A stretch of DNA of 42,579 nt from Candidatus Bathyarchaeia archaeon (GTDB taxonomy: Archaea; Thermoproteota; Bathyarchaeia; 40CM-2-53-6; DTGE01), in assembly GCA_038852285.1 (NCBI GenBank), contig JAWCKG010000016.1:1-42579 (forward strand), read 5' to 3'. This document shows, piece after piece, positions 6,258 to 40,810 of the stretch; position 1 is the first letter of the stretch, and each line of letters opens with the position of its first letter. The notes beneath the pieces are model-generated. The model was not told the origin of the DNA. It saw only the letters and a program-made list of their open reading frames with translations, and did not search any database. The translations under genes and the position numbers were made by a program.

Positions 6258-6352
6258 GCGGGGGTCGCCGAGTCAGGTCAAAGGCGCAGAACAGCGTAAG
6301 CTTCAGGAGCCTGTCCCGAAGGGGTTCGTGGGTTCGAATCCCACCCCCCGCA
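6258..6352 (+). tRNA. tRNA-Leu (anticodon CAG) with a probable 10-base intron
   Basis: Acceptor GCGGGGG pairs with CCCCCGC, T-arm GTGGG/CCCAC encloses TTCGAAT, D-arm GCC/GGC, and a long variable arm (TCCC...GGGG) marks a class II tRNA. As written, the anticodon stem does not pair. Removing AACAGCGTAA (6290-6299) restores a perfect CAGGC/GCCTG stem around the loop TTCAGGA, giving anticodon CAG. The intron would then lie between positions 29 and 30, a non-canonical site. No CCA is encoded; the gene ends at the discriminator A. Confidence 0.85.
6290..6299 (+). other. Predicted tRNA-Leu intron at position 29/30
   Basis: This is the only ten-base removal that makes the five-base-pair anticodon stem perfect. 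The segment plus downstream exon can form a short AGC-GTAA-GCT hairpin. Splicing by an archaeal endonuclease that accepts relaxed bulge-helix-bulge sites would be required. Boundaries are inferred from stem repair only. Confidence 0.55.
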
Positions 6353-22955: not shown

Positions 22956-24092
22956 CTAGTTGATTTTTATGGGGTATTCGCCATGCTTTCGAGCGTAGTC
23001 GTACATGGCTACTATCTTCTCAGGGGAGGAGTCGGCTTGGAGATTGTGGGATGAGGCGAGTATGTAGCCTCCGCCAGGCGCTAGGGCCTTAATTTTTCCC
23101 TTAACCTCCTGCTCAACATCCTCCAACGTTCCTAGAGAGGACATGACTCGCTGAACGTCGATTCCTCCGTGAAAGCATATTTTCTCCCCGAACTCTTCCT
23201 TCAGGGATTCGGGGTCCATGCCCTCCGCTAGGGGTTGAATCGGGTTGAGGATGTCAACCCCTATCTCTATTAAGTCATTTATGATGGGCCTTATGGCTCC
23301 GCAGCTATGGAAGAATATTTTAACGTTAGGCGCTTTCCCCTTAATGAAGCTGTAAAGCCTCTTCAGCCTTGGCTTAAAGATTTTCCTCCAGTCTTGAGGT
23401 GAAATTAGCATGCCCCTTTGATGTCCTGAATCTAACGATGTTCCGTAGATTATTTGAACGTATTCGCCGACCTCGCCTAGAAAGTTATCGTAGAAGCCCA
23501 TGAGCAGCTCACACATTTTATCCATGTAGGCTTCCACAACTCTAGGGTTTAACTTGAGGTTGAGGAGGAAACTTTTCATCCCCATTAAACAAAGGCCTGG
23601 GTCAAACATGTCCATGGAAGGCAGCATTGGAAAACCCATAACGGCGTAACCGGTTTCCTCAAATAACCTCCTAGCATCCCTTCTTAAACCCTCAGTTCTC
23701 CCAGGCGCGTAGGGGTCCGGGTAAGGGTAATCTTCAACATCTTCCACCTCCACCGCCCCTGCTAGGGGGTAATGGATTATCTCATAGTATTCACCGATAA
23801 CCTTAAACCTTCTACCCCACTCATCCTCCAAGACTCCCCCTGGAAGCCTCCTGGGAACCCAGCCCTTAGGACGTTTAAAATAGACTCTACGAACATCTAT
23901 GTGAAGCCTCTCTAAAACCCTCTCGCAAACCTTTAAGGGCTCAACCCAGCCCCACTTCACCACATCCTCATCCTGAACCCCTAAATAACGCTTAACGTTA
24001 AGGTAAGCGGTTGGCGTTATGAACAGGTCCAGAGGAACCCTATCAGGCTCCCTATGCTCAACAACGTCGAGAACACGATCCCTAGGCCTCAT
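22956..24092 (-). CDS. Uroporphyrinogen-decarboxylase-fold protein (MtaA/CmuA-like methyltransferase)
   Basis: About 378 residues from ATG 24092 (MRPRDRVLDVVEHREPDRVPLD, the usual start of this family); ATG 24140 gives 16 more. FFHSCGAI near the middle of the C-terminal half is the HxC zinc-ligand motif of methylcobamide:thiol methyltransferases. ASSHNLQADSSPEKI is the conserved C-terminal block. True haem-pathway UroD lacks the HxC motif, so a corrinoid-linked methyl transfer or O-demethylation role is more likely. It is divergent from the epimerase gene at 24368, sharing a 276-base promoter region. The substrate is unknown. Confidence 0.8.
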   Translation of the reverse strand: MRPRDRVLDVVEHREPDRVPLDLFITPTAYLNVKRYLGVQDEDVVKWGWVEPLKVCERVLERLHIDVRRVYFKRPKGWVPRRLPGGVLEDEWGRRFKVIGEYYEIIHYPLAGAVEVEDVEDYPYPDPYAPGRTEGLRRDARRLFEETGYAVMGFPMLPSMDMFDPGLCLMGMKSFLLNLKLNPRVVEAYMDKMCELLMGFYDNFLGEVGEYVQIIYGTSLDSGHQRGMLISPQDWRKIFKPRLKRLYSFIKGKAPNVKIFFHSCGAIRPIINDLIEIGVDILNPIQPLAEGMDPESLKEEFGEKICFHGGIDVQRVMSSLGTLEDVEQEVKGKIKALAPGGGYILASSHNLQADSSPEKIVAMYDYARKHGEYPIKIN

Positions 24093-24367
24093 AAACTTCA
24101 CGCCCCTAAGGCAAGTCGCCTCTAAACTCTTAACTTTCATTTAGTATTTGAAATCTCACCGGTTAGATCGTAAATTCTTGTTAGCTAAGTTTCTCAGAGT
24201 CCACGTCCTCCCGATAATATTTTATTAAGAATATTTCTATAAAAGGTTCGCTCCCGCTAAGTGCATATTCGTTCGAAACGTGCATTAATTGAATGTATCG
24301 ATAGGGTTAAAAACATGATCTAAAAACATTAATGATGCGCGTCGTTTAGACCGCGTTGGGAAGTTGA

Positions 24368-30406: not shown

Positions 30407-32299
30407 TTACTGGGTCTTGAACCCCAGCTTGCTTAAGAGCTCTTTTGTTTTAGGATATTTTTCCAAGCTCTTATATGGGAGATACATGCTTTTCACGTAT
30501 TCTTCTAGGAACATAGGGTGAGTCGCCAACTCGATGAACGTAGCTTTAGCCGATATTCGCTCCGCCTCAAGTCTCTCGTCGATGTTCAGCAAGGCGAGTT
30601 TGGCTCCGCTTCCAGCCGCGTTTCCTATGGGCACGATCCTCTCCAAATCCACTTCTGGTAACATGCCAATCGTCCTAGCGTTTTCAGGGTCGATGTACGA
30701 GCCGAAGGCGCCTGCTAAAAAGATCTTGTCAACATCCTCCTCTCGCAACTTTAAGTGGTTTAGCAGTATGGTTGTGGCGGCGTGGATGGCGGCTTTCGCC
30801 TTAACGATTTCATTGATGTCCCCTTGCGTGATGACTATGTCCTTGCCGATTCCCGTTTTCTCCGCTAGAGCGACCACTAATTCATATCCTTCATCCCCCT
30901 TTCGAACGTGGTTCGACTCTAACGCGTTAAACCCTGATCTATGGTTCAATATTCCCGCTTTCATCATCTCAGCGATCGCGTCGACGTATCCGGAGCCGCA
31001 GATCCCTACCGGTGGTTGATCTCCGATGGTTCGATACATAACTTCTAAGGTTTCTGGGTCAATGGAGATTCGTTCGATGGCGCCGGCGGCGGCTGTCATC
31101 CCCCATTTTGTAGCCCAACCCTCAAACGCCGGCCCGGATGGGGCGCTGGTGACCGTTAAACCCAACTCTCTTTGGCCGCAGTCTATCTCAGTATTCGTCC
31201 CTATGTCTAACGATAAGGTAGGGTTCTCAGCGTCCGCTATCCTAGTGACGAGGCATACGGCCACGTTGTCAGCTCCTACGAAGCTCTTGACTGTTGGAAG
31301 CGCGTGAAGGTAGCCGCTTCGATTTATCCGTAACCCAACATTCTCCGAGGGAACTGTGAACGATCGCCGTAGGACCTGGGTGTAAGGGCTTTGCGACAAA
31401 TACCTTGTTTCCAAGTTTAAGAGGAAGTGATGCATGACCGTGTTGCCGACAACAACCGCTTCATAGACTTTCGCCTCACCTATCCCCACGCTTTCACACG
31501 CCTCATGGACCAGCTTGTTTAAAGCCTCAACCACCACTTCATGGAGCTTTTGAAGGTTTTCAGGCGCTCTGTTGGCGTACGTCATCCTAGTCATAATGTC
31601 TTCTCCAAACGCTCTTTGAGGATTCTCCATGGAGGCTGTGGCCAGCTCCTCGCCGTCGATGAGGCTTAAAAGGTAGAGGGCAATCTTCGTTGTTCCCACG
31701 TCCACCGCCACTCCGAACCCCTCCTTAGAGGTGTCCCCCGCTTCGATGTCGACTACCTCTTTACCCCATACCACAGCGGTTAACCTCCAGTCGCCTTCAC
31801 GAAGAGTCGCCGGAAGCTTTCTGAGGGCGTTTAACCCGATGGAAACCTCACTTAAACCATACTCGCTCCTTAACGTTTCTAGAAGCCTCTCTTCGTCGGA
31901 TCTCTGATCTTCAAGACACGCGAAAGGAACGTGAACGTAATATTTTCTAACCATCGGCTTCAACGGAGCCTCCACTATTACCCCTTCTGTTTGAAGCCTC
32001 ATCCTCCCCCTCCTGCTGGAGGGGAGTATGTAAACCTCCATGTCGCTTCGCGGTTTAACCATGCACGCTAAACGGTAGCCTCTCTCAATTTCATCGTTGC
32101 TAAGAATCCTCCGTTCTCTAGGCGTAGGGGGAGGTACCCCGCCATCGCTTACAATTATCTTTACCTTACATTTTCCGCATACTCCTCTACCGCCGCAAAT
32201 GGACTCAACGGCCACGCCTCCCTTCAAGGCGGCGTCGAGGAGGCTTCCCCTTTCGATGAAAACGGTTACCTCAGAGGGCTTAAACGTTATTTTCCACAT
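30407..32299 (-). CDS. RACo-type corrinoid protein activator (2Fe-2S and ASKHA domains)
   Basis: 630 residues. The N-terminal [2Fe-2S] ferredoxin domain has Cys35, Cys41, Cys44 and Cys79 in CGGRGVCGKC and RLACM. The linker is followed by an ASKHA ATPase (DUF4445) with FGVAVDVGTTKIALYLL, LSLDIGTNTEI, GICGSGYVDA and FLAGAFGSYI. Such proteins use ATP to reduce accidentally oxidised Co(II) corrinoid back to Co(I), restarting methyl transfer. The corrinoid protein gene lies upstream on the same strand (34409-35098). ATG 32299 overlaps by one base the stop of the upstream 91-aa ORF. Confidence 0.92.
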   Translation of the reverse strand: MWKITFKPSEVTVFIERGSLLDAALKGGVAVESICGGRGVCGKCKVKIIVSDGGVPPPTPRERRILSNDEIERGYRLACMVKPRSDMEVYILPSSRRGRMRLQTEGVIVEAPLKPMVRKYYVHVPFACLEDQRSDEERLLETLRSEYGLSEVSIGLNALRKLPATLREGDWRLTAVVWGKEVVDIEAGDTSKEGFGVAVDVGTTKIALYLLSLIDGEELATASMENPQRAFGEDIMTRMTYANRAPENLQKLHEVVVEALNKLVHEACESVGIGEAKVYEAVVVGNTVMHHFLLNLETRYLSQSPYTQVLRRSFTVPSENVGLRINRSGYLHALPTVKSFVGADNVAVCLVTRIADAENPTLSLDIGTNTEIDCGQRELGLTVTSAPSGPAFEGWATKWGMTAAAGAIERISIDPETLEVMYRTIGDQPPVGICGSGYVDAIAEMMKAGILNHRSGFNALESNHVRKGDEGYELVVALAEKTGIGKDIVITQGDINEIVKAKAAIHAATTILLNHLKLREEDVDKIFLAGAFGSYIDPENARTIGMLPEVDLERIVPIGNAAGSGAKLALLNIDERLEAERISAKATFIELATHPMFLEEYVKSMYLPYKSLEKYPKTKELLSKLGFKTQ

Positions 32300-33203: not shown

Positions 33204-34412
33204 TCACAGGGATATGGGATATTTTCCGTAGGTTCTAGCGGCTTCCACCATCGCCCTCACGTTTTCAACAGGGGTATACCCTCCCACCTCGCAGGGCGTC
33301 ATGACCACGGCGGTGGTGTAGGGCGTTGTATGCTTGATAAACGTTTTAACCATATCCCTCACCTCGCCGGGCGTTCCATGCATTAACAGCTGCGTGGTTG
33401 GGGAGCTCATGGCGCACCTCCTACCCTTACACAGCTTGGCGACCCATTCATACCATTCAGGCCACGACATCTTGTATTGGCTCATGGGGGTGTCGAATTG
33501 AATTGCCTTTACGCCAGGGGCCTTGGTGGCTAAGAACTCCAGGGTTTCCTTCAGGTTGCGTCCACATACGTGCCAGAATAGGTTTTTAAAAATCCGCCTC
33601 GCCTTTTCAAGGTAAATCTCCTCGTACTCCCCGAATTCCTGCCACTGCTTCGGCCCCCAGGTCCTCCCCCCACCCCACGCGCAGAAGAATTCGCACCCAC
33701 GCTTCGCCGCGAATTCTCTATAACCGTCTAAGCTGGCCAGCCTTTCCTGCAAAACAAGGTCAAAGTAGTCGTGGAGTTTCTGTTTCGGCTCTGTGATGAG
33801 CCATTTCACGAGCCTCTGCACCTCCACCACGGTTTCAGCGTGGTTGGAAACGGTGGCTGACCCCGTTATCACAGGGATAGAATTGTTCATTTTGTTTTGA
33901 AACTCCAGCAGTTGCTGGCAATGCGGTATGAAATAGTCTCCCGCATGTCCATAGCCATATTTTTCCCAGACCTTTTCTTGAAAAAGCTTGATCGCGTCGT
34001 CTAAGGTTGTGGCTGCTGGTTTAAATACTACGTAGTCCCTTGGCCCTCTAATCACGTAGTGGTCCTTTCTCTTTTCAGGTGGAATAAGTGGGTCAAGTTC
34101 CTCTGAAAGGTCAACGTATTGCCAAATCGCGTCCCACCTGAACTCGGCCCAAGTCTTGATCAAGGCGTGGGTTCTCTTAGCCACCGCATCTGGGCCTTCA
34201 AAGATCTCCCACGCGGTGTATCCCTGGTAATAGCATGGCCAGTAATCAGCCTCTGGGGCTAATGGAACCATGTCAGGCTCCTCTAAGTTGAAGGCTTTCT
34301 CCATCCTCTCCCAATGTGTCATCTCGCCGATGTTCTCTACGCCTCTAAGTATGCGGGCCCATTCATCGACTGAGAGTGGTTTCCCGCTTACCGAGGCCGC
34401 CTTTTCGCTCAT
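33204..34412 (-). CDS. Uroporphyrinogen-decarboxylase-fold methyltransferase (corrinoid partner)
   Basis: 402 residues from ATG 34412 (MSEKAAS), which overlaps the upstream corrinoid gene's stop in ATGA; a longer open frame reaches 34484 but would sit deep in that gene. FWHVCGRN near residue 270 is the HxC zinc-ligand motif that activates a methyl acceptor or substrate. GEMTHWERMEKAF is the family N-terminus and MTPCEVGGYTPVENVRAM the C-terminal conserved block. Overlap with the corrinoid protein strongly suggests they act as a methyltransferase/corrinoid pair. The direction (substrate to Co(I), or methyl-Co to acceptor) and the substrate are unknown. Confidence 0.85.
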   Translation of the reverse strand: MSEKAASVSGKPLSVDEWARILRGVENIGEMTHWERMEKAFNLEEPDMVPLAPEADYWPCYYQGYTAWEIFEGPDAVAKRTHALIKTWAEFRWDAIWQYVDLSEELDPLIPPEKRKDHYVIRGPRDYVVFKPAATTLDDAIKLFQEKVWEKYGYGHAGDYFIPHCQQLLEFQNKMNNSIPVITGSATVSNHAETVVEVQRLVKWLITEPKQKLHDYFDLVLQERLASLDGYREFAAKRGCEFFCAWGGGRTWGPKQWQEFGEYEEIYLEKARRIFKNLFWHVCGRNLKETLEFLATKAPGVKAIQFDTPMSQYKMSWPEWYEWVAKLCKGRRCAMSSPTTQLLMHGTPGEVRDMVKTFIKHTTPYTTAVVMTPCEVGGYTPVENVRAMVEAARTYGKYPISL

Positions 34413-35098
34413 AGGGTTTTCAACCCGAGTTTTTCCTTCATGAGTTTTTTCATCTCCTCGGCAGCCACCCAAGCGTCGTCCCAAGCCCCATCGGCTCCGA
34501 ACTCAACTGCCTTCCTATAGTTTACCGCCGGGCCTCCGCAAACCACGATGACCTTATCCCGCAGCCCAGCGTTTTTTAACGCCTCAACCACCTTCGGAGT
34601 GTTATAAAATGTTTCACTCATATAGGTTCCAATTCCCACGATGCTCGCGTTATGCTCTTTTACTGCTTCAACGTATTTTCTGGATGGAACCTCAACTCCT
34701 AAGTCGATTACTTTTAACCCGATTTCAGCCGCGAAAACCGCTTTAGCGACATCTTTTCCCACGGTGTGGACGTCTCCATATATGGTGCCGATGACCATAA
34801 CTCCGGTGAACGGTTGCTCGCCCTTCCTCGCCTCCAACGATGGTCCAAGGGCCTCCATGCCAGCGTAGAACGCGTCCGCCGCGACTAAGACCTCTGGCAT
34901 AAAAACCTCCATTTTATTCCATTTTTCACCGATTATCCGCATACCCTCGGCTAACGCTCGAATCGCCTCAGCTGGATCCAAATTAGCTTCTAACGCCTCC
35001 TCCGCGGCGTTCCTAGCGGCTTCAGCGTTCAGGGAAACGACCGCGTCAGTCAACTTGGATAGGATGAGCTCTTTTCCCGGGTTTAATCTAACCCCCAT
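34409..35098 (-). CDS. B12-binding corrinoid protein (MtaC/MtbC/MttC-like)
   Basis: 229 residues. The N-terminal four-helix cap (B12-binding_2, about 10-90) has the usual EALGPSL end. The Rossmann B12 domain has DVHTVG at 109-114, where His111 is the lower cobalt ligand (DxHxxG). IGIGTYMSETF and VVCGGPAVN are the later conserved loops. This small corrinoid protein carries the methyl group between two methyltransferases. It overlaps the downstream methyltransferase by four bases and follows a 110-aa protein four bases upstream. Fits of this arrangement are known for methylotrophic and O-demethylase systems. Confidence 0.95.
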   Translation of the reverse strand: MGVRLNPGKELILSKLTDAVVSLNAEAARNAAEEALEANLDPAEAIRALAEGMRIIGEKWNKMEVFMPEVLVAADAFYAGMEALGPSLEARKGEQPFTGVMVIGTIYGDVHTVGKDVAKAVFAAEIGLKVIDLGVEVPSRKYVEAVKEHNASIVGIGTYMSETFYNTPKVVEALKNAGLRDKVIVVCGGPAVNYRKAVEFGADGAWDDAWVAAEEMKKLMKEKLGLKTL

Positions 35099-39739: not shown

Positions 39740-40810
39740 ATGAGATCAGCTAAACGCATACTACGGGAAAGACTCAAAATGGCTAAGAGTTCGCTTGAAA
39801 GGTGCTTGGAGGCGTTTGACGGAGAATCGGATCGGATCCCTTTCGCGCCTTTTATAATGCACTTCGCCGCTGAGCTTCTTTCAATCGATTATTCTTCACA
39901 ATATTGTCAAAATTATAATTATGTTGTCGAGGGTCAGATCAAATGCTGGAAAAATTTTGACCTAGATGTTGTATGCGTTTCCACAGATGCTTATAGGGAG
40001 GCTGAAGGATGGGGCGTTAAGGTCTCATACGATATGCACACGCCTTATCCAGTAAGGCAGCTGGACATAGGGAGTTTCGACTCCGTGGAGGCCCCAGAAG
40101 TCATGTCGGGGAGAATGCTGGATAGAATAAGAGCAGTGGAGAAGTTGTCTCGATCGCACGGAAGTGAAGTTCTAGTCATAGGCTGGATCGAAGCCCCGTT
40201 CGCCGAGCTATGCTGCCTATTCGGAGTTTATCAAACGTTGCTGTTGGCGAGGAGAAACCCCGCTCTGCTGAGGAGAATACTAGATAGAGTTGTTAAAGTC
40301 CAAGAAGAATTCGCCAAGGCGCAGATAGAGGCTGGAGCGCACGTGATAGGCGCTGGGGACTCGATCATCTCGCAGATAGGACCTGGTGAGTACAAAAGGA
40401 CCGCTCTCGACACGACGAGAAAGCTATTCCATGCCTTGAAAGTCCCTGTGCTGTACCACTGTTGTGGGGACAATTCAATCGTCAATAAAGATGGAGACAT
40501 GTTGAAGTTAATTGCTAGCAGTGGCGCGAAGATAATAGACATAGACACCCAGGTGAACCTAAAGGTCGCGAAAGAGAAGATCGGTGAATGCTGCATCAGA
40601 GGAAACGTGAATACCACAATATTAGGCGATCCTATGGCTACCACAGAAGCTATTTTTGACGCCTGCAAAGAGTCTGTAGAAACAGGCAAGATTAACGGAA
40701 GATATATGTTCGCAGCGGGCTGCGAATGGCCTTGGAGGCCTCTGAACATTGTATCAAGAAATCTAGGGATAGCGAAAGCAATAGTCTTGGCTTATGGAAC
40801 TTATGCATGA
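39740..40810 (+). CDS. Uroporphyrinogen-decarboxylase-fold protein, methyltransferase-like
   Basis: 356 residues. ATG 39740 or ATG 39779 (MAKSSLERCLEAF). SDRIPFAPFIMHFAAELL is the family N-terminus. LYHCCGDN near residue 236 is the HxC zinc-ligand site. FAAGCEWPWRP near 330 is the C-terminal block with the additional Cys. These features fit methylcobamide-dependent methyltransferases over haem-pathway UroD. It is followed on the same strand by an epimerase-like gene, but a decayed transposase segment lies between them. The partner corrinoid protein may be the one at 34.4 kb. Confidence 0.8.
   Translation: MRSAKRILRERLKMAKSSLERCLEAFDGESDRIPFAPFIMHFAAELLSIDYSSQYCQNYNYVVEGQIKCWKNFDLDVVCVSTDAYREAEGWGVKVSYDMHTPYPVRQLDIGSFDSVEAPEVMSGRMLDRIRAVEKLSRSHGSEVLVIGWIEAPFAELCCLFGVYQTLLLARRNPALLRRILDRVVKVQEEFAKAQIEAGAHVIGAGDSIISQIGPGEYKRTALDTTRKLFHALKVPVLYHCCGDNSIVNKDGDMLKLIASSGAKIIDIDTQVNLKVAKEKIGECCIRGNVNTTILGDPMATTEAIFDACKESVETGKINGRYMFAAGCEWPWRPLNIVSRNLGIAKAIVLAYGTYA

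Follow-up and report, generated by a model that had tools for sequence, protein, structure and literature searches.

Introns of archaeal transfer RNAs (tRNAs) are cut at a helix of four base pairs (bp) that is flanked by bulges, and each border falls after the second bulge base and before the third (PMC4307357). A 2014 review gives a length range of 11–129 nucleotides (nt), lists 29/30 as a non-canonical intron position, names Crenarchaeota and Nanoarchaeota as rich sources and describes tRNA-Ala genes of Caldivirga maquilingensis that are split at 29/30 (PMC4090602). In Sulfolobus tokodaii, an anticodon-stem intron of a leucine tRNA (anticodon given as GAG in section 14 of the paper and as CAG in section 15) is cut in vitro by EndA at a predicted structure resembling the bulge-helix-bulge (BHB) motif (PMC4307357). 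Relaxed BHB motifs (bulge-helix-loop, hBH) are cut by endonucleases of the (alpha-beta)2 and epsilon2 types (PMC6379350). All statements from these three sources refer to the excerpts on which we draw. Here we analyse a tRNA-Leu(CAG) gene on a 42,579-nt stretch of DNA (contig JAWCKG010000016.1 of assembly GCA_038852285.1, positions 1 to 42,579, forward strand; 'the window') from a Candidatus Bathyarchaeia archaeon. Its anticodon stem is interrupted by ten bases that are very probably a minimal non-canonical tRNA intron.

The insertion point is the same as in the 29/30 introns and split genes of Crenarchaeota, but the intron has ten bases instead of 11–129 and belongs to another archaeal class. 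In the S. tokodaii case, too, the intron sits in the anticodon stem of a leucine tRNA, in a different lineage. With the relaxed BHB motifs, as excerpted from PMC6379350, the locus shares a single bulge next to a 4-bp helix, a second cut placed in a loop and an enzyme carrying the lysine of the Crenarchaea-specific loop (CSL); the loop here has only six bases, four of them intronic. The kind of intron and position 29/30 are thus already known; the length is unusually short, with longer counterparts at the same place in relatives. A reading made from the sequence only had placed 29/30-type introns mainly in intron-rich, Crenarchaeota-like lineages and had called ten bases very short, and both remarks agree with the excerpted review (PMC4090602). 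Our literature search on short archaeal or Bathyarchaeia tRNA introns, made at title and abstract level with limited coverage, returned no shorter archaeal case and none from the class.

When 6290–6299 are removed, the anticodon stem becomes CAGGC/GCCTG (5/5 pairs) and encloses the loop TTCAGGA with anticodon CAG. The spliced tRNA has 85 bases, sound stems and a variable arm of 14 bases, and its anticodon stem is continuous in the computed fold. Removal therefore restores an ordinary tRNA, as is characteristic of introns spliced by the archaeal endonuclease. In a scan of 1426 single deletions (3–25 nt) this one ranks first by cloverleaf score (30.75, versus 19.45 for the undeleted gene); the runner-up (28.35) is the same length slid by one or two bases. 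The border is unambiguous as to slippage, since 6289 differs from 6299 and 6290 from 6300. Two standard gene finders misname or miss the gene: ARAGORN calls the unspliced form tRNA-Thr(CGT), and at its gathering score the Rfam tRNA model gives no hit here. The sequence-only reading had proposed a tRNA-Leu(CAG) with exactly these ten bases inserted at 29/30, inside an anticodon stem that becomes perfect without them. That observation is real and was correctly described, in gene identity, position, length and coordinates (Table 1).

Table 1. Elements of the tRNA-Leu(CAG) gene and of its predicted splice motif (window coordinates).
Feature	Position	Strand	Remarks
tRNA-Leu(CAG) gene, unspliced, G1 to A73	6258..6352	+	sequence read directly; CCA not encoded
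5' exon, positions 1–29	6258..6289	+	
Outer helix, 5' half A21 A22 G23 (partner 6301–6303)	6281..6283	+	absent from minimum-energy fold
Central 4-bp helix, exon half G24 C25 G26 C27 (GCGC)	6284..6287	+	also in minimum-energy precursor fold
Six-base loop AG/AACA, predicted 5' cut between 6289 and 6290	6288..6293	+	loop from fold; cut by second-bulge-base rule (excerpt of PMC4307357)
Ten-base intron AACAGCGTAA at 29/30	6290..6299	+	best single deletion; unique splice-motif placement; same-site introns in 14 other genomes
Central 4-bp helix, intron half GCGU (intron bases 5–8)	6294..6297	+	
Three-base 3' bulge AA/G, predicted 3' cut between 6299 and 6300	6298..6300	+	
3' exon, positions 30–73	6300..6352	+	
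Outer helix, 3' half C31 U32 U33	6301..6303	+	absent from minimum-energy fold

The same borders are marked by pairing in the precursor. The helix between 5' exon and intron, GCGC/GCGU, has 4/4 pairs (one G-U), and the 3' bulge AA/G is closed by an outer exon–exon helix, AAG/CUU, with 3/3 pairs by position. Of 1273 placements along the gene (intron lengths 7–25), this one alone shows the complete splice-motif pairing. The full motif score is reached by 1.2% of random ten-mers placed at the leucine site and by 0.23% of shuffled versions of the intron. Since cloverleaf and splice motif were scored by a simple scheme of our own, these scores, placements and trial frequencies are only indicative. 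In its minimum-energy fold, the precursor forms the GCGC/GCGU helix and the six-base loop AGAACA. A strict hBHBh' motif was not found, because the intron-internal helix h' has 0 bp and a six-base loop takes its place; we therefore file the motif as a relaxed bulge-helix-loop.

The only genome of the same family in our searches, G001, has an uninterrupted Leu(CAG) gene (G001:C3:61379-61463, L027) that is identical at 83 of 85 bases. Across the class, the pattern AAAGGNGCAGN{8,30}TCAGG matched in 93 of 256 genomes, many of these matches being due to chance, since the reversed pattern, used as a control, hits many genomes too. Twenty matches were chosen by eye and fetched. Fourteen of them, spread over 13 genomes, are Leu(CAG) genes interrupted at 29/30 by an intron of 16–26 nt; in five no tRNA was seen. 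The spliced anticodon stem has 5/5 pairs in all 14 orthologs, and the central helix has 4/4 pairs in ten and 3/4 in four. A further genome, G247, has a 12-nt intron, AGCAAAGCGTAG, in a gene (L154) whose contig ends after the variable arm. The intron is thus present in 14 other genomes (12–26 nt) or, with the window, in 15 genomes and 16 genes, a lower bound given that only 20 matches, selected by eye, were fetched. The lengths are 10 (window), 12, 16 (two copies in one genome), 18, 19, 19, 20 (four times), 21, 24, 24, 26 and 26 nt. By script count, an intron-internal helix of 4–5 bp is present in 6/14 fetched introns and one of 1 bp in 4/14; the window intron has none. Uninterrupted Leu(CAG) genes were found in 56/256 genomes, with no overlap with the 15 interrupted ones, and 185/256 showed neither form by these patterns. 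Four families (f1, f11, f15 and f20) hold both forms, which argues that the leucine intron was gained or lost repeatedly. A stricter pattern applied to the whole phylum matched in 7/398 genomes (reversed control: 0 among the matches listed), namely that of the window, four others already known, and G324 and G450, whose very short, unchecked inserts are left out of the counts.

In L140 (genome G006), one of the 14 fetched leucine genes, the T arm is not contiguous; beyond the variable arm the sequence departs from a normal T arm, so that a further intron is likely there. The 16S ribosomal RNA (rRNA) gene of the window's genome matches that of Candidatus Bathyarchaeota G104 at 84.3% identity; against pieces from Candidatus Bathyarchaeota G107 the identity is 86.5% across 1105 bases and 83.1% across 734. 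A place of the genome in the Bathyarchaeia is likely. The 16S gene of G001 (L134) measures ∼ 1806 nt versus 1498 nt in the window's genome; two alignment gaps of ∼ 70 and ∼ 240 bases suggest 16S rRNA introns in G001.

Two genes with a tRNA-intron endonuclease domain are present in the window's genome. The putative alpha subunit (L001, 187 amino acids) aligns over nearly its full length with chain 3p1z_B (7.6e-50), which we take to be Aeropyrum pernix EndA. Read off the alignment, it has the catalytic triad Y124, H132 and K163, and its K40 aligns with K44 of 3p1z_B. In the excerpt at hand, K44 of A. pernix EndA is the conserved CSL lysine required for broad substrate specificity (PMC6379350). 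The second protein (L002, 171 amino acids) has both endonuclease domains above the Pfam cut-off. It shows no histidine at the aligned active-site position (alignment read by eye), which would suit a structural subunit. Together, the two proteins fit an (alpha-beta)2 endonuclease of crenarchaeal type. Judged by sequence, the genome thus has what characterizes lineages with relaxed introns: a two-subunit enzyme, one subunit of which carries the triad, and the CSL lysine.

The best cloverleaf, the full set of splice pairings, the uninterrupted relative, the introns at the same site elsewhere and the endonuclease subunits together make us confident that the ten bases are a non-canonical intron with a relaxed bulge-helix-loop motif, and that the two-subunit endonuclease most likely removes it. 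From the gene, its motif, the endonuclease genes and orthologs with and without the intron, all seen at the sequence level, we infer that tRNA-Leu(CAG) is transcribed, cleaved, ligated and refolded. In the precursor, intron bases 5–8 (GCGU) would pair with exon bases 24–27 (GCGC), which in the finished tRNA form parts of the D stem, position 26 and part of the anticodon stem, while exon bases 21–23 would pair with 31–33. The predicted layout is an outer helix, the three-base bulge AA/G, the 4-bp helix and the six-base loop AG/AACA. The endonuclease would cut after the second loop base and after the second bulge base, and a tRNA ligase would join position 29 to 30. The freed bases could then take up the ordinary D and anticodon stems.

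Several points weigh against this interpretation. Ten bases are one fewer than the smallest intron of the reviewed range, which starts at 11 nt. The central helix is incomplete, with three of four pairs, in four of the 14 fetched orthologs. The minimum-energy fold lacks the outer 3-bp helix and pairs the remaining anticodon arm differently; it therefore backs the central helix only. Finally, the intron is dispensable, as the nearest genome does without it.

Among the alternatives, the gene might be dead or mis-assembled and the ten bases stray, which would be compatible with a draft assembly of 42 contigs and with the absence of the insert from the closest relative. We regard this as very improbable: the 85 exon bases make up a sound tRNA that shares 83 bases with that relative, the insert bears a splice motif and has same-place counterparts in 14 other genomes, and the uninterrupted Leu(CAG) pattern finds no match in this 99%-complete genome. 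CUG accounts for 59/356 leucine codons in eight open reading frames (ORFs) of the window, although tRNA-Leu(TAG) (L017) might also read it. Cuts shifted by one or more bases, or an intron of another length, are very unlikely. Slid deletions of the same length do give fair cloverleaves (28.35 versus 30.75), and in S. tokodaii a predicted border proved wrong in a biochemical test (excerpt of PMC4307357); however, the splice-motif scores of the three slid versions listed are below zero, and the products would differ from the uninterrupted genes of relatives. That the gene has no intron and works as another tRNA, such as the tRNA-Thr(CGT) named by ARAGORN, can be practically dismissed: our best unspliced reading leaves the anticodon stem broken and the variable arm 24 bases long, another locus (L009, G000:C2:120864-120959) is predicted to encode a tRNA-Thr(CGT) whose intron lies at the canonical site, and the closest uninterrupted relatives are leucine tRNAs.

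The leucine gene is one of many interrupted tRNA genes in its genome. By automatic placement, introns of 10–30 nt, at least one per gene, interrupt 21 of the 24 tRNA genes that scored well. This census was made with a home-made solver that is sound for single introns and over-fits where a gene has several introns or a long variable arm. It started from 36 candidates with recognisable ends, and genes were counted only if the spliced score was at least 28; twelve were dropped, including an intron-free tRNA-Arg(TCT) (L007, score 26.6). In eleven more stretches, fetched by a T-arm pattern, no tRNA ends could be recognised. In tRNA-Val(CAC) (L010) a ten-base intron, AACATGGGAA, follows the same AACA-NNNN-AA plan as the leucine intron, with NNNN pairing to the 5' exon, but lies at the canonical position 37/38; the Val(CAC) gene of G001 has no intron. 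Because this intron is built alike, ten bases are not a freak of one gene. A ten-base intron in tRNA-Gly(CCC) (L015) is not claimed, its border being uncertain. Introns are predicted both at 29/30 and at 37/38 in tRNA-Arg(GCG) (L020; 14 nt each) and in tRNA-Arg(TCG) (L070; 13 and 14 nt, respectively). The 29/30 intron of Arg(GCG) ends in ACGCGTAA, close to the AGCGTAA of the leucine intron.

Taken together, we tentatively propose, at a likelihood that we would place slightly short of even, that archaeal tRNA introns have a functional lower size class at ten bases, in the form of a bare AACA-NNNN-AA cassette of four loop, four pairing and two bulge bases that can occupy different sites (29/30 in Leu, 37/38 in Val). 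The leucine site would then hold a series from 26 nt, with an internal helix in several of the longer introns, down to 10 nt without one, shaped by repeated gain or loss, and the intron, until cleaved, might keep the precursor folded in a way incompatible with the D stem. The chief interest lies in this size series and in the minimal motif. The motif sets a concrete lower bound on what the endonuclease would have to recognize, namely little beyond one bulge and a 4-bp helix, with a six-base loop and no internal helix. At a single site of a single gene, natural versions of 10, 12, 16, 18–21, 24 and 26 nt provide a ready-made test series. The data also extend heavy interruption of tRNA genes to a class that lies outside the well-studied Thermoproteales.

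Further tRNA genes were noted in passing. The window contains a tRNA-Gly(GCC) gene (L011, 20361–20447, + strand) with a 12-base intron, ACCGAGGCAGAG, at 37/38 and a complete splice motif, and a 110-nt gene (L018, 20038–20147, + strand) that is probably tRNA-Phe(GAA) and apparently has more than one intron. Two long tRNA genes, L083 and L087, perhaps both of lysine type, are identical in their first 47 bases, which include what looks like one common D-arm intron. Four ORFs of the window (22956–24140, 30407–32299 and 33204–35098 on the – strand, 39740–40810 on the + strand), named from their translations alone, read like methyltransferases of the uroporphyrinogen-decarboxylase family, a corrinoid protein and a ferredoxin-domain reactivase.
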